58,290 bases of DNA. Origin: Solirubrobacterales bacterium. Lineage in GTDB: Bacteria; Actinomycetota; Thermoleophilia; Solirubrobacterales; Solirubrobacteraceae. The DNA is taken from the NCBI GenBank assembly GCA_003133565.1, contig PKYB01000047.1:1-58290 (forward strand), in the 5' to 3' direction. Below, one piece after another: positions 1 to 12,007 of this stretch. The stretch's first letter is position 1, and every line of letters starts with the position of its first letter. Below the pieces are notes generated by a model. The model did no database searches. It was not told the DNA's origin and saw nothing but the letters and a program-made list of their open reading frames with translations. The position numbers were made by a program, and so were the translations under genes.

Positions 1-51
<51 letters not shown>

Positions 52-67
52 GTTGCAGGGCGCGATT

Positions 68-991
68 CTAGCGGGGGTCGGCAGCGTGCAGGCGCCGCGC
101 GAGCTCGAGTGCCTCGTGCGGCGAGGAGAAAGTGAGCTCGGCGCGATAGGTACCACCGCGCGCGACGGCGACGTGCACGTCGGCACCAAGCGCGCTCGCC
201 AGCGCATCTGCGATCACCGCGCACGCCTCGGCCTGGTCCGGGTGGGGTGCTGTCGTTCTCTCCTTCGCGCCCCCGGGCGCGCCGCCGCGCTGGTTGCTCT
301 CACGGGCTTGTTGCTCGAGTGTTCTGACCGACCACTGCTCGCGGGCGGCGCGGCGGGCGAGTGTCCGCCGGGCATCGTGATCGTTTGCGAGCAGCAGTGC
401 CCGGCCGTGGCCCTCGCTGAGGCCCCTTTGTTCGAGAAGCTCCAACGTTTCGTCGGGGAGATCCAGCAGGCGCAGGAGGTTTGACACGGCGACGCGGCTG
501 CGGCCGATACGCAGGCCGACCTCCTCGCGCGAAAGCCCCAGCTCCTCAACGAGGGCTGCACAGGCGCGCGCTTCATCGACCGGGTTGAGGTCCTCGCGCG
601 CCATGTTCTCGATTAGCGCGAGCTCCAGCGACGCGGCGTCATCGCGCGGCCGCACGAGCGCCGGAATCAGTTCGATGCCCGCGAGCTGGGCGGCTCGCCA
701 CCGCCGCTCGCCCGCGATCAGCTCGTATTTGCCGCCGGGCATCGGCCGCACCAAAATCGGCTGCAGCATGCCACGCGACTGCAGCGAGCCGGCCAGCGCG
801 GCCAGCGTGTCGTCGTCGAAATGACGTCGTGGCTGGTGGGGGTTAGGCGCTATCAGCTCCACTGATAGCTGGCGCAGATCATCGCGGTCGCTGTGAGGTG
901 TCGACGACACCGAAAGGATCGCCGAGAGGCCGCGCCCCATGCCGCGCTGGCGGCCGTCGGAGTCGGGCGAGGTGCCCGGCCAGCTAGCCAT
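68..991 (-). CDS. parB: Chromosome partitioning protein ParB
   Basis: ParB is the CTP-dependent clamp that loads at parS and works with ParA to segregate the origin. The 307-residue protein shows the usual N-terminal GRGLSAIL (about 19-26), the ParB/Srx motif GERRWRA (94-100), box II ENMAREDLNPVDEA (129-142) and a helix-turn-helix around 152-177. A C-terminal dimerisation region follows. The start at 991 overlaps the parA stop (ATGGCTAG), suggesting translational coupling. An internal ATG at 940, directly before GRGLSA, is the alternative. It is the last protein gene of the minus-strand arm. Confidence 0.93.
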   Translation of the reverse strand: MASWPGTSPDSDGRQRGMGRGLSAILSVSSTPHSDRDDLRQLSVELIAPNPHQPRRHFDDDTLAALAGSLQSRGMLQPILVRPMPGGKYELIAGERRWRAAQLAGIELIPALVRPRDDAASLELALIENMAREDLNPVDEARACAALVEELGLSREEVGLRIGRSRVAVSNLLRLLDLPDETLELLEQRGLSEGHGRALLLANDHDARRTLARRAAREQWSVRTLEQQARESNQRGGAPGGAKERTTAPHPDQAEACAVIADALASALGADVHVAVARGGTYRAELTFSSPHEALELARRLHAADPR

Positions 992-1739
992 CGCCGGCAA
1001 CCTCCCGCGCCAGCGCCACGTAGGCATCCGAGCCCGCGCAGAACGGGGCGTGGAGCGTCACCGGGACACCAAAGCTCGGCGCCTCGCTGAGGCGGATGTT
1101 GCGCGGTATCACCGTGTCAAAGACGAGTCCCGGGAAGTGCTCGCGGACGTCTCGTTCGACGTCCCGACCGAGGCGCGTGCGGTTGTCGTGCATCGTCAGA
1201 AGCAAGCCGCCGACGCTGAGGCGCGGGTTGAACTCGCGCTGGATAAGGCCGATCGTGTCCAGCACCTGCGCGAGCCCTTCGAGGGCGAAGTACTCGGTCT
1301 GCACCGGCACGATCACGCTGTCGGCGGCGACCAGCGCGTTTACCGTGAGCGGGCCGAGCGAGGGCGGGCAGTCGATCAGGACGAACGAAAACCGTTCGCG
1401 CAGTGGGGCAAGCGCGTCGTGCAGGCGGCGCTCGGATCCGGGCACTGTTGGCAGCTCGACGGATGCGCCCACCAAGCCGCTGCCCGCGGGCATCAACCAC
1501 AGCCTGTCGACCGGGGTCTCGTGGATAGCCTGCTCAGCATCGCACGCGCCACAGAGGACGTCGTAGACGTTTGGCGACAGCGCGCGGGGCTGTCCGAGCC
1601 CGACCGTCGCATTGGCCTGCGGGTCGATGTCGACGATCAGTGCACGGTGCCCGGCCGCTGCCACCGCGGCCGCAAGGTTGACGGCTGTCGTCGTCTTGCC
1701 AACCCCACCCTTCTGATTCGCGATCGCGAACACGCCCAC
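984..1739 (-). CDS. parA: Chromosome partitioning ATPase ParA/Soj
   Basis: A Walker-type partition ATPase that makes a nucleoid-bound gradient to move ParB-parS. It carries the deviant Walker A KGGVGKTTT near residue 10, the DIDPQAN segment, and Walker B-like FVLIDCPPS. From the GTG at 1739 it has 251 residues, a normal ParA/MinD length. The start is uncertain: a second GTG is at 1733, and the frame stays open upstream to a GTG at 1889, just after the rsmG stop. That would add a roughly 50-residue Arg-rich extension, and no convincing ribosome binding site settles the question. The 155 bases up to rsmG show nothing else I recognise. Confidence 0.93.
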   Translation of the reverse strand: MGVFAIANQKGGVGKTTTAVNLAAAVAAAGHRALIVDIDPQANATVGLGQPRALSPNVYDVLCGACDAEQAIHETPVDRLWLMPAGSGLVGASVELPTVPGSERRLHDALAPLRERFSFVLIDCPPSLGPLTVNALVAADSVIVPVQTEYFALEGLAQVLDTIGLIQREFNPRLSVGGLLLTMHDNRTRLGRDVERDVREHFPGLVFDTVIPRNIRLSEAPSFGVPVTLHAPFCAGSDAYVALAREVAGDG

Positions 1740-1894
1740 ATCGGACAACTTAGCGGTCCGTGCTGCGCTGCCGCGACTCAGTGCCGCCGGCGCGCGCCGT
1801 GAGCGCGCGGCGACGCCGCGCCCAACCAGGCCTGGCTGTGGGCGCTCCGACCGCTCCAAAACCTCGGCGCTGCGGGCTCTTGGGCTCACGAGTG

Positions 1895-2593
1895 CTATCC
1901 GCGTGACCGCTTGCGCGCCACACCGGGCCGGCGAGGGAACCGGGCCGGGGTTTCCGCAACCTTTGCGTACATGACGAGGCGGCGATCCACGCTGCCAGCA
2001 TAGGGTTCCGTTCGGACCGTACCGGCCGCCTCCAGGCCGGTTTCCGCGGCCGCCGCCGTGCCGGCGCGCAGCTCGGCCTCGCTCACGGCGCCTTTCCACG
2101 CCACCAGCGTTCCGCCGAGCACCAGCAACGGCGCGGCGTACTCACACAACAGCGCAAGGGGCCCGACAGCCCGCGCGGTCACGAGATCCTGGCCGACCAG
2201 CCCCTCATCCCAAGATTCCACGCGGGAGCGCACCACCGAAACATTCTCGGCCTGCACCACTACCCGGGCGCGCTCGAGGAACTCGCACTTGCGCCCGGCG
2301 CTTTCGACCAGCGTCACGCGCGCGACGGGCAGCGCGATCGCCAGTACAAGTCCCGGGAATCCCGCGCCCGAACCGACGTCGGCGATCGTGCGCGCGTCGC
2401 GCACCGCCGGCAGATCGACAGCGCTCAACGAGTCGGCGAGATGGACGTCCACCGCCCGCTCTGGCTCGCTGACCGCGGTCGGCGCGTGAGGGTCGCCGGC
2501 CAGGTGCTCGAGCAACGCCAGCAAGCGCGGGCCTGCGGCCGGCTGCAGTCCGTGGCGCTGCGCGAGCTGCTCGACGCGCTCGGCGACGCTCAC
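1895..2593 (-). CDS. rsmG: 16S rRNA (guanine-N7) methyltransferase RsmG/GidB
   Basis: RsmG methylates N7 of G527 in 16S rRNA, using S-adenosylmethionine; loss gives low-level streptomycin resistance in known species. The 232-residue protein has the SAM-binding motif ADVGSGAGFPG near residue 70, followed by LVESAGRKCEFL and the ARAV segment typical of GidB. The GTG start overlaps the stop of the upstream LAGLIDADG-like gene (GTGA), so the two are probably translated in series. The position next to parAB is the classic gidB-parA-parB arrangement. Confidence 0.95.
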   Translation of the reverse strand: MSVAERVEQLAQRHGLQPAAGPRLLALLEHLAGDPHAPTAVSEPERAVDVHLADSLSAVDLPAVRDARTIADVGSGAGFPGLVLAIALPVARVTLVESAGRKCEFLERARVVVQAENVSVVRSRVESWDEGLVGQDLVTARAVGPLALLCEYAAPLLVLGGTLVAWKGAVSEAELRAGTAAAAETGLEAAGTVRTEPYAGSVDRRLVMYAKVAETPARFPRRPGVARKRSRG

Positions 2594-2946
2594 GCGGCGC
2601 GGCGGATTCGCGCGATGTAGTCGGCGTAGCGCTCGCGCATCTCGGCTAGACGGCCTGTCGCATAGGCGTCCAGATCCGGCGTAATGCGCGACTCCAGGAG
2701 CGGCAGTACGTCCTCAACAAGCGCGACGCCGCGGGCCATCCACTGGTAGTAGCTGCGCCCGCCGTGCCCGTAAGGGCCGTAGAGCCGGCTGCGCGGAAAG
2801 CGCTCAATCAGCCAGCGAAAGAGGGCCTCGTGGCGTACATGCATTCGCAGCGTCACCTGGGGCTGCTTGCCATCACCGCCGAATGAGCCCTCGCCGATCA
2901 GTATCCCGGTGACTACTCCCTCTTCGAAAGGCGTCAGCGCGACCAC
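2590..2946 (-). CDS. Stand-alone LAGLIDADG-like protein
   Basis: A 118-residue protein whose N-terminus (about 11-24) reads GVVTGILIGEGSFGGDG, matching the helix and GEGSF turn of LAGLIDADG homing endonucleases. A beta-strand-like stretch follows (VTLRMHVRHEALFRWL), then YYQW and a C-terminal helix. The catalytic-type acidic residue of GEG is kept; the preceding conserved Asp is Ile. A single motif implies a homodimer if folded in this family. It is not inside an intron or intein: it occupies its own slot between jag and rsmG, overlapping rsmG by GTGA. This suggests a domesticated DNA- or RNA-binding role. The start GTG has no strong ribosome binding site. Family assignment is by motif only. 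Confidence 0.7.
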   Translation of the reverse strand: MVALTPFEEGVVTGILIGEGSFGGDGKQPQVTLRMHVRHEALFRWLIERFPRSRLYGPYGHGGRSYYQWMARGVALVEDVLPLLESRITPDLDAYATGRLAEMRERYADYIARIRRAA

Positions 2947-2977
2947 GCCGGCGAGTGTCGCAGGTTTGGCGGATGTT

Positions 2978-3004
2978 GTTTCACCGCCGAGAAAAACGTG
3001 AAAC
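2978..3004. promoter_or_regulatory. Split parS-like inverted repeat
   Basis: GTTTCAC at 2978-2984 and its exact inverse GTGAAAC at 2998-3004 are the two arms of the canonical parS palindrome (TGTTTCACGTGAAACA), here separated by 13 bases instead of adjoining. It lies in the short gap between jag and the LAGLIDADG-like gene, about 2 kb from parB. Whether ParB binds a split site is inference; a chance repeat or an operator is possible. Confidence 0.4.
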
Positions 3005-3019
3005 GAGGCCGCCTCGCGC

Positions 3020-3490
3020 TCAGGCCCCGGCTGGCGTGACGATCAGGCGGCGGTTCGGTTCGTCTCCCTCACTGTACGTGCCAACATCGCCGCGATCGCG
3101 CAGGTACTCGTGAACAAAGCGCCGCTCGGTTGCCGGCATCGGCGACAGGGCGACCTCTCGTCGCTCGGCGACCGCGGTCAGCACTGCGCGGTCGGCCTCC
3201 CCGCGCAACTCCACTTCGCGCCGCTCGCGATAGCCCCCCGCGTCAACGACAACCCGGAGTCCCTCTCCGCCGCGCAGCACGATTCGCTGCGCGAGGTGCT
3301 GCACCGCGTCGATCACGGTGCCGCGCTCGCCGACCACGGACTCCACGTCGGCGCCGGTGATGGTGCCGCGCAGCACCCCGTCCAGCTCTTCAACCACGAC
3401 CTCGGCGTCGAGTCCGAAGGCGTCGATAAGGGTCGCCAGCACCTCGCGCAGCGCCTCCTCCGGAGCCGGCCCTGTGTCGTCGATCGTCAT
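3020..3490 (-). CDS. jag: Jag/KhpB RNA-binding protein (KH and R3H domains)
   Basis: The 156-residue protein has an N-terminal region, a KH-like domain (TITGADVESVVGERGTVIDAVQHL, residues about 45-70) and a C-terminal R3H domain with ERRFVHEYL near 120. This is the SpoIIIJ-associated/KhpB family, which binds RNA and affects cell division and wall synthesis in Gram-positives. The ATG at 3490 lies 28 bases after the yidC stop, matching the conserved yidC-jag pairing. The N-terminal Jag-N domain of firmicutes appears to be absent or very short. Confidence 0.9.
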   Translation of the reverse strand: MTIDDTGPAPEEALREVLATLIDAFGLDAEVVVEELDGVLRGTITGADVESVVGERGTVIDAVQHLAQRIVLRGGEGLRVVVDAGGYRERREVELRGEADRAVLTAVAERREVALSPMPATERRFVHEYLRDRGDVGTYSEGDEPNRRLIVTPAGA

Positions 3491-3518
3491 CCGGCGATCC
3501 GCGCCTCGCTCACGAGCG

Positions 3519-4412
3519 TCAGCGCCGCCGGCCTGAGCGTTTCTTGCGCTTCCGTGGCGGTTGGCGCGGCGGCCCGCTGCGCGCCGCCGGACTCGTCCGC
3601 ACGGCCGTTCGCACCACGCCCTCGGTGGCACGCCCGTTGGTACTCGCGCCGGCGGTCGCTACGGCCAGCGGCGGCGGCGTACCCGCGCGGCGGCGGATGA
3701 ACCACTGCAGGGGGATCTGCGTCATGTTTGTCGTGATCCAGTAGAGCAGCAGCCCGGCGGCGAACTGGAGGATGAAGATCGTGAACACGAACGGCAATCC
3801 GAGCATCATCAGGCGCTGGTTACGGTCCATCGCCGCGGTCGAGAAGTACGACGTCACCACCATCGAACCGACGTAGAGCACCACCAGCACGCCGAGCACC
3901 CAGCCCTGCGCCTTCGCCGTGATGTCGGGAATGAACAAAAAGGCACCCGAGTGGGCCAACACCGAACTGCAGCCATGCTTGGCAGTCTGCGCCGATGTTA
4001 TGTAGCCATGAGCCTTCAGTGCCGGTCCGCAGATCTTCTTCTTCAAGTCGGTTCGCAGCATGTAGATCAGCGACACGAACACCGGCAACTGGACCAGCAT
4101 CGGCAAGCAGGAGGCGAGCGGATTGACGCCGTTCTCCTTGTAGTACTTCATCGTCTCCTCGCTGAGACGTTGCTTGTCGTCCTTGTACTTCGCCTGCAGC
4201 TTCTTGAGCTCCGGGGCGTGGATCTGCATCTTGGCCATGCCGCGGAATTGCTTGAGCGTGATCGGCAGCGTCACGACACGAATCACGATCGTCAGCCCGA
4301 TGATCGCCCAGCCCCAACTGCCACCGACGACCGAGTGGATGTAGATCAGCACCTGCTCAAAGACCTTGATCAGCGGCCCAAAGGCGTCCTCAATGACGTT
4401 TGCCTGGATCAT
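3519..4412 (-). CDS. yidC: Membrane protein insertase YidC/Oxa1
   Basis: YidC inserts and folds membrane proteins alone or with SecYEG. The 297-residue protein begins with a first membrane helix ([20 protein letters not shown]) holding the conserved hydrophilic-groove arginine. A charged cytoplasmic hairpin follows ([29 protein letters not shown]), then helices at [29 protein letters not shown] and [18 protein letters not shown]. The C-terminus is Arg/Lys-rich ([11 protein letters not shown]), as in actinobacterial YidC proteins that contact the ribosome. Its ATG overlaps the yidD stop. Confidence 0.95.
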
Positions 4413-4690
4413 GGGAAGGTCTTCGTGCCCTCGGTGCTCGGGCGTGTGAGGTCGCGAAACAGATGTTGCGCCGCGACGGGGTCAAAGCCGCCGTCGCTCC
4501 ACGGGTTGCAGCGCAGCAGCCGCCAGCCGGCGAGCACGAGCCCGCGGAGTATGCCGAACTCGCGGATTGCCTGCACCGCATAGCGCGAGCAGCTCGGCTC
4601 GTAACGGCAACGCGGGCCGAGAGCCGGCGAGATCACCCTTTGGTAGAGGATTAGGGGTGCCACTGCGATTTCGCGGCCGATGCGCTTCAC
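4409..4690 (-). CDS. yidD: Membrane protein insertion efficiency factor YidD
   Basis: A 93-residue YidD family protein. The N-terminal amphipathic helix ([13 protein letters not shown]) and the cysteine-rich signature [16 protein letters not shown] are intact, followed by [18 protein letters not shown]. YidD associates with the inner membrane and helps YidC-dependent insertion. It overlaps rnpA upstream and yidC downstream by four bases each, so the three are probably one translational unit. Confidence 0.95.
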
Positions 4691-5079
4691 GACGATGCGC
4701 CGCCTTCGTGGTGGGCTTTTGCAAGCAACTCCTCGAGCGCGCCGCCGATTCCCTCGAGGCCACGCGTCGTCGCGAGCTCCAACGCCGCGGCGCGAGCCAC
4801 GAGGACGACGTCCTGGCCCGGCTGGATTGCCTGCCCCTGCGCCGTGCAGGCCTCCCGCAGCAGTCGTTTGACGTGGTTGCGCTCCACCGCGCCCCCAACC
4901 TTGCGCCCGACCGACAGGCCGACGCGCGACGGCCCGTCGCCCTGGCGTGGGAACGTGTACAGCACGAGGTAGCGGTTGGCCACCGAGCGACCCTGTCTGT
5001 ACACGCGGTCGAACTCCGCGCTACGTGACAGTCGCCCCGTCGGACGCCGCGAGGCAGTGCCGTGCTGGCGCTCGGCCAC
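4687..5079 (-). CDS. rnpA: Ribonuclease P protein component
   Basis: RnpA is the basic protein subunit of RNase P, which matures tRNA 5' ends. The 130-residue protein has [16 protein letters not shown], the central [23 protein letters not shown] (an RNR-type motif with His in place of the second Arg), and the VVLVARAAA strand. The GTG start shares one base with the rpmH stop (TAGTG). A short hydrophilic tail follows the conserved fold. Confidence 0.95.
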
Positions 5080-5213
5080 TAGGTGGTGAGTCGCTTGCGG
5101 CCCTTGGCGCGGCGGCGCTTCAGCGTCAACTGTCCGGCGCGCGTGCGCATGCGGGCGCGGAACCCGTGCGTGCGGGCGCGCTTACGCTTCTTCGGCTGGT
5201 AGGTGCGCTTCAT
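5079..5213 (-). CDS. rpmH: 50S ribosomal protein L34
   Basis: A 44-residue very basic protein starting [19 protein letters not shown] and ending KGRKRLTT, a near-perfect L34. It is the first gene of the minus-strand arm and lies opposite dnaA, the classic rpmH-dnaA organisation that marks the origin region. A minus-strand -10-like element is 42 bases upstream. Confidence 0.98.
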
Positions 5214-5254
5214 CGCCAGGCGCGCGGCGGTCAGATCTCGCCGCAGTCGGAGCC

Positions 5255-5260
5255 AGTATA
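5255..5260 (-). promoter_or_regulatory. Putative -10 element for rpmH
   Basis: TATACT on the minus strand, about 42 bases upstream of the rpmH start. No good -35 hexamer is seen at the expected distance, so this rests on the -10 alone. Confidence 0.35.
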
Positions 5261-5349
5261 GCGGGCCGACGGTCGCGCTCCCGCGCCTGCGACGCCACCC
5301 GTTTTTCCCGCCAAATGCGCTCTGCCAAGCAAGCGACGGCAGCACGCGT

Positions 5350-5387
5350 TGGTATATTCGCCCGCTCCGGGGATTAGCCGGATCCCC
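5350..5387 (+). promoter_or_regulatory. Putative dnaA promoter and leader hairpin
   Basis: TGGTATATT at 5350-5358 matches an extended -10 (TGn plus TATATT). Just downstream GGGGAT (5369-5374) can pair with ATCCCC (5382-5387) across a seven-base loop, near the expected transcript 5' end. The rest of the 5214-5433 gap shows no consensus DnaA box. A GGGAGGA at 5416-5422 precedes the dnaA GTG by 11 bases. Confidence 0.45.
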
Positions 5388-5433
5388 CATTAACTGTGAT
5401 GAGCCGACCCATGACGGGAGGACGGCGCGCGTC

Positions 5434-6756
5434 GTGTCGGGCAACCTCGAGCAGACCTGGCAGGAAATTCAACTCGCACTCCGCGAGTCTGTTGGGGAGC
5501 GCGCTTACGGGCTTTGGCTTGCGCCCCTGCGCTGCGTTGGTCTCGAGGGCGACACGCTCGTTCTCGCCGGGCCACCAGAGGTCCTCGCCTGGGCCTCCGG
5601 CCGACTCGGTCCGGCATTGCACAGCGCCAGCGCCTCCGTCTTCGGCCGCGCGATCGCGGTGCGCGTCGCACCAGACGACGGCCCCGCCGCAGCCGCGCCT
5701 GCGCCACCGGCGGCCTTTCCCAAGGACACCGGCCCGAACCCCCGCTACACCTTTGAGCAGTTCGTAATCGGCACCTCCAACCGCCTAGCGCACGCCGCAG
5801 CGCTGTCGGTCGCCGAACTGCCGACACAGGCCTACAACCCACTGTTCATCTACGGCCCGCCCGGCCTTGGCAAGACACATCTTCTGCATTCCATCGGCAA
5901 CTACATTCATGCGTTTGGCGGCGGTCTGACCGTGCGCTACGCCACCGCCGAGGACTTCACCAACGCCTTCCTCGCCGCACTCGCCGCACGAGACACCGGG
6001 CAGTTCAAGGCGCGCTTTCGCGGCGTCGACGTGCTGCTGATCGATGACGTGCAGTTTCTCGAGCGCAAGGCGCGGAGTGAAGAGGAGATGTTTCACACCT
6101 TCAACGCGCTGTACGAGGCCGGCAGCCAACTCGTGGTCACCTGTGACCGCCTACCCTCCGACCTCGCCGGCGTCGAGTACCGCCTACGGGAGCGCTTTGC
6201 CTCCGGCCTCGTCACCGACATCGAGCGTCCCGACAACGCAACGCGCGTTGCAATTCTGCGCAAACGAGCGCTCTACGACGGAATCGAGATCAGCGACGAC
6301 GCCCTGGTTTTGCTTGCCGACAGCGTCACGACCAACGTGCGCGCGCTCGAAGGGGCCTTAACGCGCGTGGTTGCTTTCGGCTCGCTTCAGCGTCGCATAC
6401 TCGACAGTTCACTCGTTGCCGAGGCGCTCGCACGCCAAGGCCTAACCATCGCCCTGACCGCACACATCACAATCGCCCAAGTACAGGCAGCGGCATGCGC
6501 CTATTTCAAGCTCAGTGAGAGCGAGCTCCTCTCACGTTCACGTCTCGAACCCATAGCCTGGGCGCGCCAGGCGGCGATGTATCTCTCACGCGAGTTGACA
6601 AGCCACTCACTTCCGCGCATCGGCCGCGAGTTTGGCGCCCGCGACCACACAACAGTTCTTCACGCCTGCCGCCGCGTCGTCGTCCAGATCGCCCGCAACC
6701 CGGCGGCCTTCGCCGACATCGAAGCGCTCACAACAATGCTTTCCTCCTCGGCCTGA
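5434..6756 (+). CDS. dnaA: Chromosomal replication initiator DnaA
   Basis: DnaA-ATP binds origin boxes, melts the duplex and recruits the helicase. The 440-residue protein has domain I (about 1-80), a short Ala/Pro linker (80-100), the AAA+ core with Walker [10 protein letters not shown] (141-149) and Walker B LLIDD (201-205), and C-terminal domain IV. The signature [10 protein letters not shown] in the recognition helix is intact, which predicts ordinary DnaA-box specificity. The GTG at 5434 was chosen because it follows GGGAGGA and gives the usual domain I start. The linker is shorter than in Streptomyces DnaA. Confidence 0.97.
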
Positions 6757-6882
6757 CCACAGGCCTACGCACAGTCCCTCCACACCGAGAGCGCAGCATC
6801 GTCCCCACGACATGGGAGCATGACGGCAATCCACACAAGCTCACACCCCCTACAGCTATGAGGATTCACAACCGTTGTTGAT
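6757..6882. other. Candidate origin region between dnaA and dnaN
   Basis: This 126-base gap lies within 1.5 kb of the point where the two gene arms diverge. It holds four same-strand DnaA-box-like nonamers: CCCTCCACA (6776, 6/9 to TTGTCCACA), TCGTCCCCA (6799, 7/9), CAATCCACA (6827, 7/9 to TTATCCACA) and GGATTCACA (6862, 6/9). No perfect box is visible. A slightly AT-richer end (GTTGTTGATATGAAAG) runs into dnaN. The gap is short for an actinobacterial origin, so the call is tentative. Confidence 0.35.
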
Positions 6883-8013
6883 ATGAAAGTCACTCTCTCC
6901 ACCGCAGCTTTCCTTGGCGAGCTGCAAACAGCCTCACGTGTCGCCTCCTCGCGCAGCGCAGTCCAGGCGCTTTCTGGTGTCCAGCTGGAGGCGGGCGACG
7001 ATGGTCTCGAGCTGCGCGCTACCGACATGGAGGTCGGCCTGCGGCTACAACTGGATGCAACAGTCTCTGTGCCAGGCTCCGTTGTTCTTCCTGCGCGCTT
7101 GCTGCTCGATGTGGTGCGCGCGCTCGCCGGCTCCGAGCTGACCCTGGAGCTGCGCGCCGAGCAGCACGATGTCGAGCTCGTCTGTGGAACCGCCGTTTTC
7201 CACCTGCGCACGCTTCGAGGCGAAGACTTTCCTCGTCTACCCGAGCCGCCTACCGCCGACATTGTCCAACTCGACGCCGCGGCCTTCATCGACACCGTCG
7301 CACGAGTCGCACGGTCGGCTTCGCGTGACGAGACGAGGCCAATACTCACCGGCATCCTCGTGTCGGCGTCAGCCTCTTCACTACGCATGGTCGCGACCGA
7401 CTCCTACCGCCTCAGCGTGAAGACGACGACGCTTGAGACTGCGGTGACGGCGCCATTTGAGGCAAACGTGCCGGCGCGTGCGCTGCAGGAGCTGGCGCGC
7501 ATCGCCCAGCAGGCCGGGGTCGAGCAGATCGGCGTGGCGCGGCTTGAGAACCAAATCGTCTTCAGCCTGGGTGACGCCACCAACGGTGCTGGCAGCGCGG
7601 TGCTGTCTTCGCGGTTGATCGACGGGCAATTCCCCAACTACCAGCAACTCCTCCCGGACAGCGCCGATCACGAGCTGCGCGTTGCACGCGAGGAGCTGAC
7701 GGAGGTGGTCCGGCGCGTCAGCCTGCTGGCGCAGAAGAACGCGCCCCTGCGTCTCGGCTTCAACGACGGCGAGCTCCGCGTATCGGCGCAGACGCCGGAC
7801 GTCGGCGAGGCGCACGAGACGCTGCCGATCCCGTTTGCGGGTGAGCCGTTTGAGATCGGCTTCAACCCGGAATTCTTCCGCGACGGACTCGAGAGTCTCG
7901 AGTCCTCAGAGGTGTTGATCAAGCTGACCAGTCCGCTGCGCCCGGGTCTGATCGAATCCGCTGACGGCAGTGGATTCGTCTATCTGGTCATGCCGATCCG
8001 CCTGGGCACGTGA
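6883..8013 (+). CDS. dnaN: DNA polymerase III sliding clamp (beta subunit)
   Basis: The beta clamp encircles DNA and tethers polymerase III and other partners. The 376-residue protein is full length, with three clamp domains. It starts MKVTLSTAAFLGELQTASRV and ends in the characteristic VYLVMPIRLGT, which forms part of the peptide-binding pocket. The internal segment TDSYRLSVK is the conserved second-domain motif. ATG at 6883; recF follows after six bases. Confidence 0.97.
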   Translation: MKVTLSTAAFLGELQTASRVASSRSAVQALSGVQLEAGDDGLELRATDMEVGLRLQLDATVSVPGSVVLPARLLLDVVRALAGSELTLELRAEQHDVELVCGTAVFHLRTLRGEDFPRLPEPPTADIVQLDAAAFIDTVARVARSASRDETRPILTGILVSASASSLRMVATDSYRLSVKTTTLETAVTAPFEANVPARALQELARIAQQAGVEQIGVARLENQIVFSLGDATNGAGSAVLSSRLIDGQFPNYQQLLPDSADHELRVAREELTEVVRRVSLLAQKNAPLRLGFNDGELRVSAQTPDVGEAHETLPIPFAGEPFEIGFNPEFFRDGLESLESSEVLIKLTSPLRPGLIESADGSGFVYLVMPIRLGT

Positions 8014-8019
8014 ACCGCT

Positions 8020-9122
8020 ATGCAAGTCGAGCGTGTCCGTGTGCGCGACTTCCGCTGCTACGAGGATGCCGAGGTGACGCTGGGTGAAGGACTGACGCTG
8101 GTGCACGGCGCCAACGCCAGCGGCAAGACAAACCTGCTCGAGGCGCTCTATTTCGCCTGCACGGCGCGGTCGTTTCGAACCTCCAACGAGCGCGAGTTGG
8201 TGCGCTTTGGCGCCGCCGCGACGCGTGTCGTACTGGAAGGCTCTGACGAGGACGGCCAGCACGAGATCGCGATCGGCTTCTCGCCGGGAGAACCCAAGCG
8301 CATATCCCTCGACGGCGCCCCACTCGAGCGCCTCCTCGACGCCCCTCACCGGCCGCTCGTCAGCGTCTTTTCGCCGGACCGCCTCGAGCTCATCAAGGGC
8401 GCACCGCGGCTCCGCCGTGCCCACATTGACCAGCTCGTCGCCGCGTTATGGCCGGCTCGCGCGGCGACCAGGCGTAGCTACGGTGAAGCCCTCGCGCAGC
8501 GCAACGCCCTGTTGCAGCGCGTGCGCGCCGGACGAGCCGATGCCCAGTCGCTTCGGCCCTGGGACCTCGAGCTCGCCACACTCGGCCTCGACCTGGCCGC
8601 AAATCGCGAGCGCGCCACGGAGCGGATCGCCGAGCGCTTCGTGAGCCACGCGGAGGACCTTGGTCTGGATGGTGCGCTGACGCTGTCCTATCGCACGCGC
8701 TCGCAGGCGACGGACGCCGAGGGACTTGCCGCGGAGTTTGCCGCGGCGCTACCGAACGATCTTGCCCGTGGCTACAGCACGCACGGACCGCATCGCGACG
8801 ATCTGATCGTGCGCCGCGACCGTCGCGACCTGCGGGCTTACGGTTCGCAGGGCGAACAGCGAGTCGCGCTGCTAGCGCTCCTGATCGCCGAGCGCGACGC
8901 GCTGGCCGCCGAGCGCGATCGTGTGCCGCTGATGTTGCTCGACGACGTGATGAGCGAACTCGATGTGGGGCACCGTGGCCGCCTCGCTGACGCGTTGGTC
9001 AAGCACGGCCAAACCGTGGTTACCACGAGCGAGCTCGAGCACGTCCCGGGCTGGGACGCCGACGACGTCGCGCGTGTTGCCGTCGAGCCGCTGGCACGCA
9101 CGACAGGCGGAGCGCTCACCCG

Positions 9123-9126
<4 letters not shown>
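8020..9126 (+). CDS. recF: DNA replication and repair protein RecF
   Basis: RecF loads RecA at gaps through the RecFOR pathway. The 368-residue SMC-like ATPase has N-terminal MQVERVRVRDFRCYEDAEV, Walker A GANASGKTN (about 29-37), the ABC-type signature region YSTHGPHRDDL, and Walker B LMLLDDVMSELD. The stop overlaps the dciA start by four bases (ATGA). Confidence 0.96.

Positions 9127-12007
<2,881 letters not shown>

Follow-up and report, generated by a model that had tools for sequence, protein, structure and literature searches.

A conserved gene with a predicted LAGLIDADG fold is linked to a split parS site in seven bacterial phyla

A LAGLIDADG-like gene between jag and rsmG

The window analyzed here is a stretch of 58,290 nucleotides from a Solirubrobacterales genome, and the genes of interest lie close to its start, all on the minus strand. 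A gene for a jag-like protein with an R3H domain (positions 3020..3490; Pfam PF01424) is followed by an open reading frame for a 118-residue protein (2590..2946, GTG start at 2946; hereafter, gene X), then by rsmG (gidB; 1895..2593; PF02527) and, further downstream, by parA (984..1742; PF13614/PF01656) and parB. The limits of the parB reading frame are 68..1027, with the start probably near 940, and its product contains the ParB_N and HTH_ParB domains with, according to the helix alignment, the recognition helix GRSRVAVSN. The stop codon of X overlaps the start of rsmG as GTGA. The original prediction had described this reading frame, its length, its GEGSF-type motif, its place between jag and rsmG and the GTGA overlap, all of which are confirmed; the strand, which it left unstated, is minus. 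A tRNA gene truncated by the window start (positions 1-51, minus strand) lies just past parB and is the sole Rfam match within positions 1-12000, and no intron reaches the Rfam gathering score in that region.

The single motif of X reads GILIGEGSF: Glu19 occupies the position of the catalytic acid at the motif end, and Ile17 replaces the first Asp of LAGLIDADG, as originally noticed. The AlphaFold model of X (pLDDT 96.5) adopts a LAGLIDADG fold, with the alpha-beta-beta-alpha-beta-beta-alpha core and the LAGLIDADG helix forming one lobe that fills the whole 118 residues, and all 43 Foldseek matches to this model at E<=0.001 are LAGLIDADG proteins. The proposed LAGLIDADG ancestry is thus supported by the predicted structure. 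By sequence, X alone matches nothing in Pfam and NCBIfam, even at E<=10, and a search of solved structures yields a single chance-level match (E 1.2); 4 of 15 family members weakly match PF14528 (LAGLIDADG_3; best E 0.016). A Pfam scan found no HTH family in X, and neither WhiA nor HTH regulators are among the structure matches listed for it.

Protein searches returned 5735 relatives of X at E<=0.001 and, with a myxococcal X as the query, 2414; among the matches listed (the best 120 of 5735 and the best 120 of 2414), the relatives are annotated as 'hypothetical protein' wherever they are named. From a scan of named genomes, 80 of 134 loci were retained, each with at least 56% identity. By the NCBI ranks of the record titles, the kept loci span seven phyla, namely, Actinomycetota, Acidobacteriota, Myxococcota, Deinococcota, Gemmatimonadota, Elusimicrobiota and Ignavibacteriota. 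Across 15 diverse members, 37 alignment columns are invariant, many of them within the two beta hairpins that make the DNA contacts in LAGLIDADG enzymes. Thus, X belongs to an unnamed, strongly conserved family, and the 5735 relatives, intact reading frames (no internal stops in the 52 X-containing genomes of our order sample) and low dN/dS values described below show that it is more than a chance open reading frame.

The spread of X is patchy: the gene was found in 6 of 296 genomes sampled across the phylum and in 52 of 201 genomes sampled from the order, every one of these 52 in the family of the window, which contributes 115 of the 201 genomes. X has no match among 50,697 phage records, 72,556 plasmid records or viral contigs. 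A phage, plasmid or viral origin was rejected given these zero matches in all three collections, in keeping, along with the lack of Rfam introns, with the original statement that the gene has no intron or mobile context.

A split parS element directly upstream of X

The main finding of this analysis, absent from the original prediction, is a conserved element in the gap between jag and X, directly upstream of X (2977..3004, minus strand), that has the form GTTTCAC-13 bp-GTGAAACA. The arms are the half-sites of the canonical parS palindrome, GTTTCACGTGAAAC. In the window, the left half-site GTTTCAC lies at 2998..3004, the 13-bp spacer GTTTTTCTCGGCG, which includes a degenerate middle half-site, at 2985..2997, and the right half-site GTGAAACA at 2977..2984. 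Thus, the half-sites GTTTCAC/GTGAAAC are those of canonical ParABS, but here 13 bp separate the outer half-sites, and the middle one is degenerate.

Searching up to 260 bases upstream, we found the split element in front of X in 78 of the 80 loci as well as in the window; both exceptions (L001 and L045) start at a contig end. Compared with the 16 arm positions, the best element has no mismatches in 30 of the 78 loci, one in 42, two in 5 and three in 1, so that 77 of the 78 depart from the arms TGTTTCAC/GTGAAACA at no more than two positions. The window contains a single match, and 100 shuffles of the window gave none. In the genome from which the window comes, there is one element with 0 mismatches, and the next four places have 3 mismatches each. 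A regulon of the element is ruled out in this genome, where the sole copy within two mismatches sits at X.

Among 57 sites from the family of the window, both arms are near-invariant (in the left half-site, six of the seven positions are invariant and one is conserved at 98%), and the middle half-site reads GTTTTTC in 39. In other groups, 48 sites from 26 loci follow the pattern TGTTYCAC, degenerate GTGAAAC, TGACG, GTGAAACA, with the left half-site exact in 41, the right one (GTGAAAC) in 47 and the middle one in 2. Left and middle half-sites are never both exact, against 1.7 such sites expected (Fisher p=0.019, with two off-register fits, L062 at -49 and L073 at -88, included in the 48 sites). 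Accordingly, with the outer half-sites kept and the left and middle ones never both exact, these X+ loci show no full parS. Two or more element sites were scored in 20 of the 26 loci outside the family, compared with 4 of 53 family loci. In 297 Acidobacteriota genomes that were not sorted by the presence of X, a gap of 0 dominates among the places listed, with no visible enrichment of a gap of 13.

Both half-sites lie on one side of X, upstream, and no parS remnants were detected downstream of the gene in 23 of the 24 loci shown. The exception is L034, where a second inverted pair of half-sites, 13 bp apart, is located about 40 bases past the X stop codon and resembles the upstream element when read on the other strand.

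In four loci (L025, L053, L013 and L017), inspection by eye places the right half of the element over a -35-like TTGACG, with a -10-like TAGAAC about 17-18 bases further. Given this overlap, binding at the right half could affect the transcription of X. One possible reading is that X is an autoregulating transcription factor and the element is its operator, parS-like by descent, so that X would act on its own operon (rsmG and parAB) and not on segregation. The location of the element in the promoter region of X, over promoter-like boxes in several loci, and its presence as a single copy in the genome of the window agree with this scheme, and WhiA, in the accessible part of PMC3781837, provides a precedent for a LAGLIDADG-derived regulator. 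An operator would leave unexplained, however, both the near letter-for-letter retention of the two half-sites and the absence of an intact parS alongside it, and X cannot be an operon leader in the acidobacterial loci, most acidimicrobial loci and L066, where X is on one strand and rsmG and parB are on the other. We consider this explanation unlikely.

Intact parS without X or split parS with X

The genome of the window (86% complete) contains no parS 16-mer within two mismatches; near its origin, the split form is found instead of a palindromic parS. A canonical parS within the window itself is ruled out, the best match having 4 mismatches. A further 39 X+ genomes, corresponding to 39 of the 80 loci, all contain the element, and none contains the exact 16-mer; 11 of the 39 match the 16-mer within two mismatches, and several of these matches are the element itself. 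None of the 52 X+ genomes in the order sample contains the 16-mer within one mismatch. Within the family, 26 of the 63 X- genomes contain the exact 14-mer core of parS, compared with 2 of the 52 X+ genomes (p=1.7e-6); among genomes from the other families of the order, 9 of 86 contain it. The two cores in X+ genomes are isolated (L136, G443 C40; L148, G514 C478); no origin genes were recognized on the G443 and G514 stretches that carry them, and a plasmid, an integrated element or a binning error are possible sources.

From the 37 X- family genomes that lack the exact core, 22 were searched and 19 gave an rsmG locus: 15 of these loci contain parS with one mismatch, 3 with two mismatches and 1 contains none, and the split element is present in 0 of the 19. 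We then scored 95 family loci uniformly (53 X+ and 42 X-) within 2.2 kb of the rsmG start. Of the 53 X+ loci, 51 contain the split site, and in the other 2 the region is cut off. A separate intact parS was found in none of them, the two-mismatch intact match in L034 being its own split element. Among the 42 X- loci, a non-random draw from the 63 sampled X- family genomes made up of 23 fetched for carrying parS and 19 for lacking the exact core, intact parS was found in 41 (21 exact, 17 with one mismatch and 3 with two) and the split site in 0; L200 is the sole X- locus with neither. The best intact parS is upstream of rsmG, on the same side as the split site and X, in 30 of the 41 loci, and between rsmG and parA in the remaining 11. 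Thus, around rsmG in this family, nearly every locus read has, near the partition genes, either an intact parS without X or a split parS directly beside X, and in the X+ loci the arrangement departs from canonical ParABS in that a fourth gene adjoins parS.

When the X state was mapped on a tree of DnaA and DnaN for 84 loci, 12 changes were obtained, 7 of them forced by supported branches, and the parS state switches along with X in 7 of 7 independent supported pairs (p=0.0156). A search of the 42 X- stretches at E<=0.1 detected no X remnants. With neither an X-less split site nor an X remnant seen, the split site appears to need X. The absence of the gene at the same place in close relatives had been named beforehand as an observation that would count against the original prediction, and X is indeed missing from 63 of the 115 family genomes; this absence does not refute the prediction, given that an intact parS lies near rsmG in 41 of the 42 X- loci read.

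A missing parS is not exclusive to X+ loci: of 8 loci read from other families of the order, 6 have neither X nor a recognizable parS near rsmG. These six (L173, L175, L176, L178, L179 and L180) encode parAB and rsmG, with neither X nor a recognizable parS in the stretch, and may use sites invisible to this search.

Selection, descent and the catalytic acid

In the six closest pairs of X genes, dN/dS ranges from 0.05 to 0.19, indicating purifying selection. The reading of selection leans on these pairs only: many codon pairs are near saturation among the 2297 shared pairs, over which X has a median dN/dS of 0.27 and rsmG one of 0.39, and jag gave no codon pairs. The X genes of the family form one clade (support 98, on few columns), and distances between them track those of DnaA/DnaN (rho 0.32, p=0.001), with rsmG following more closely (0.60). 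These observations fit one acquisition followed by mostly vertical inheritance with repeated switching, gain and loss not being separable by the tree.

Of 81 X copies, 78, the window included, have Glu at the catalytic position, as do 34 of 34 further family loci that overlap with the 81-copy set; the first Asp of LAGLIDADG is replaced by Ile, Val, Met, Leu or Thr. The retention of a catalytic-type Glu in 78 of 81 copies is more than a pure binder should need and counts against a purely DNA-binding role. The three remaining copies (L004, L036 and L057) have Gln and occupy two parts of the X tree; all three keep the split element, and near rsmG they lack an intact parS within two mismatches, although the argument is carried by L004 and L036, the reading frame of L057 being broken in the public contig. 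A conserved cutting role would not predict Gln copies that keep the element, and the conserved role of X therefore seems not to require cutting.

These data bear directly on the main alternative, namely, that X is a selfish homing endonuclease, active now or until recently, whose target is parS, with the split element being a cleavage-resistant parS that ParB uses unaided. Such a nuclease explains the usual Glu better than the role in ParB loading proposed below, and it explains equally well the avoidance of full parS, that is, the fact that none of the 53 X+ loci scored has an intact parS near rsmG and that left and middle half-sites are never both intact in the 48 sites outside the family. 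The 12 state changes on the best tree of one family, 7 of them forced, are also compatible with homing, as is the variation in the gap and the orientation of the cassette from phylum to phylum, as parS itself may vary. A homing cycle should, however, leave X-less split sites and X remnants, and there are 0 of these in 42 X- loci. Furthermore, the three acid-less copies in two parts of the tree keep both element and gene, X is not inserted into parS but has both halves upstream, the family copies form one clade whose distances track DnaA/DnaN, two X+ genomes carry an exact 14-mer core elsewhere, and the phage, plasmid and viral-contig collections hold no match. On balance, we regard a selfish nuclease as improbable; if it were the true explanation, a nuclease that attacks the bacterial centromere would be equally striking.

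A domesticated X, as originally suggested, is supported indirectly by purifying selection, the absence of decayed copies in the 42 X- loci, the Gln copies and the lack of matches in mobile collections.

Genomic neighborhoods of X

X leads into rsmG in the family of the window and in Meiothermus. In five Acidobacteriota loci, X adjoins rsmG but points away from it, and in most Acidimicrobiia loci and L066, it is located between parB and rsmG on the opposite strand. X precedes parA in L068 and L078 (by eye) and mnmG in L062; L080 is the sole locus without par genes, rsmG or mnmG among the annotated neighbors. Because X occupies varied gaps and orientations among parAB, rsmG and mnmG, the evidence points to a tie of the gene to the split parS, not to rsmG. 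The original prediction had offered replication, partition or rRNA maturation as the process in which X takes part; the evidence points to partition, via the split parS, and rRNA maturation or coupling to rsmG is rejected, X being convergent with, divergent from or separated from rsmG elsewhere. In Acidobacteriota, 20 stretches fetched for carrying parS include 0 with X, and in 15 of them parS is about 1.5 kb or less from parB or rsmG.

The same neighborhoods help to weigh a passive alternative, under which X would be a domesticated relic on a recombining jag-rsmG-parA allele and the split parS a neutral ParB variant with no tie to it other than linkage. Being neighbors, X and the element would be moved together in a single recombination event. 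A passenger, however, would hardly show dN/dS of 0.05-0.19 in the closest pairs and at least 56% identity across the kept loci, nor would the pair of gene and element be expected to stay together in seven phyla amid different neighbors, and we deem this reading very improbable.

ParB proteins in X+ and X- loci

The ParB recognition helix looks alike in X+ and X- loci. The pattern of residues equivalent to R173, N178, G201 and R204, whose roles are described in the accessible part of PMC7383237, is shared by all 45 X+ ParBs scored and by 34 of the 37 X- ones; with the R173 and G201 equivalents and the ParB_N and HTH_ParB domains kept, these proteins resemble those of canonical ParABS. The residue three positions before the GxSR turn is R or K in 36 of 37 X- ParBs, whereas 33 of 45 X+ ParBs have L, V, I, C or S there; in the window, it is Leu, within EVGLRIGRSR. 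The mutual information of this column (0.58) is the highest among seven proteins, the maxima of the others being 0.21-0.46, with two of the seven, parA (13 X+ rows) and recF (1), being poor controls. The kinship-aware covariation test was not significant (1.5 of 6 pairs agree, 0 opposed), and we take co-evolution of this ParB column with the X state as a hint only.

A possible role of X in ParB loading

In the window, parA and parB are side by side near the origin and, as in canonical ParABS, next to rsmG near dnaA. Since the X+ loci keep both genes, and no other parS-like site was seen at the origin, the split element is the likely centromere of X+ genomes. In the available parts of PMC10419367 and PMC7022226, other ParBs are reported to bind single half-sites, GTTTCAC or GTTCCAC, in cells, producing narrow peaks; the left arm of the element varies mostly between these two sequences, and this match supports the use of the element by ParB. 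Two half-sites 13 bp apart should nevertheless not serve ParB alone as one site.

We therefore propose, with marginally better than even confidence and judging from sequence patterns and the predicted fold, that X is a homodimeric DNA-binding protein of the LAGLIDADG fold that lets ParB load on the split parS. The X homodimer would sit across the 13-bp spacer, on a pseudo-palindrome of 25-29 bp. LAGLIDADG homodimers such as I-CreI span about 22 bp, a length at which an X dimer would fit across the spacer. Once bound, X may position or retain ParB on the two half-sites and thereby license loading. X may also control its own level, given that the element lies in the promoter region of the gene.

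A broader version of this proposal, which in our estimate falls just short of an even chance, is that X is a fourth component of chromosome segregation, in which a homing-endonuclease fold was domesticated and now performs part of the recognition of the centromere. X would license ParB at a parS split by 13 bp and would replace the near-universal palindromic parS in at least seven phyla, with switching back and forth within a single family. If this is correct, ParB loading can be licensed by another protein, the centromere can be split and is naturally and repeatedly switched, and an endonuclease fold has been recruited into chromosome segregation. We found no report of a LAGLIDADG protein at parS in a literature search that covered open sources and few subscription papers, bioRxiv preprints being outside its range.

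KorA, an HTH protein and not a LAGLIDADG one, is the partner of KorB in plasmid RK2. This pair, described in the available part of PMC11790492, offers a working analogy only, in the sense of a small DNA-binding partner of a ParB-family clamp; its function in plasmid transcription silencing is unlike the chromosomal role that we propose for X. WhiA (DUF199) is, according to the accessible portion of PMC3781837, a domesticated LAGLIDADG endonuclease linked to cell-cycle functions, in which the C-terminal HTH domain is responsible for DNA binding and the metal-binding and catalytic residues have been lost. X resembles WhiA in being, by its predicted fold, a LAGLIDADG-derived bacterial protein but differs from it in consisting of one lobe, in having no HTH family detected and in mostly keeping the acid. 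The LAGLIDADG-like lobes of WhiA are two in number.

Compared with the single-motif, homodimeric endonucleases I-CreI and I-MsoI, X, which we describe here from sequence and predicted fold, keeps the acid at the motif end but has no first Asp; it was found in no intron, intein or mobile element and is not inserted in its own putative target, and it occupies one chromosomal neighborhood. Single-motif LAGLIDADG homing endonucleases of this kind are about 160 residues long, and the X proteins, at about 105-120 residues, are shorter.
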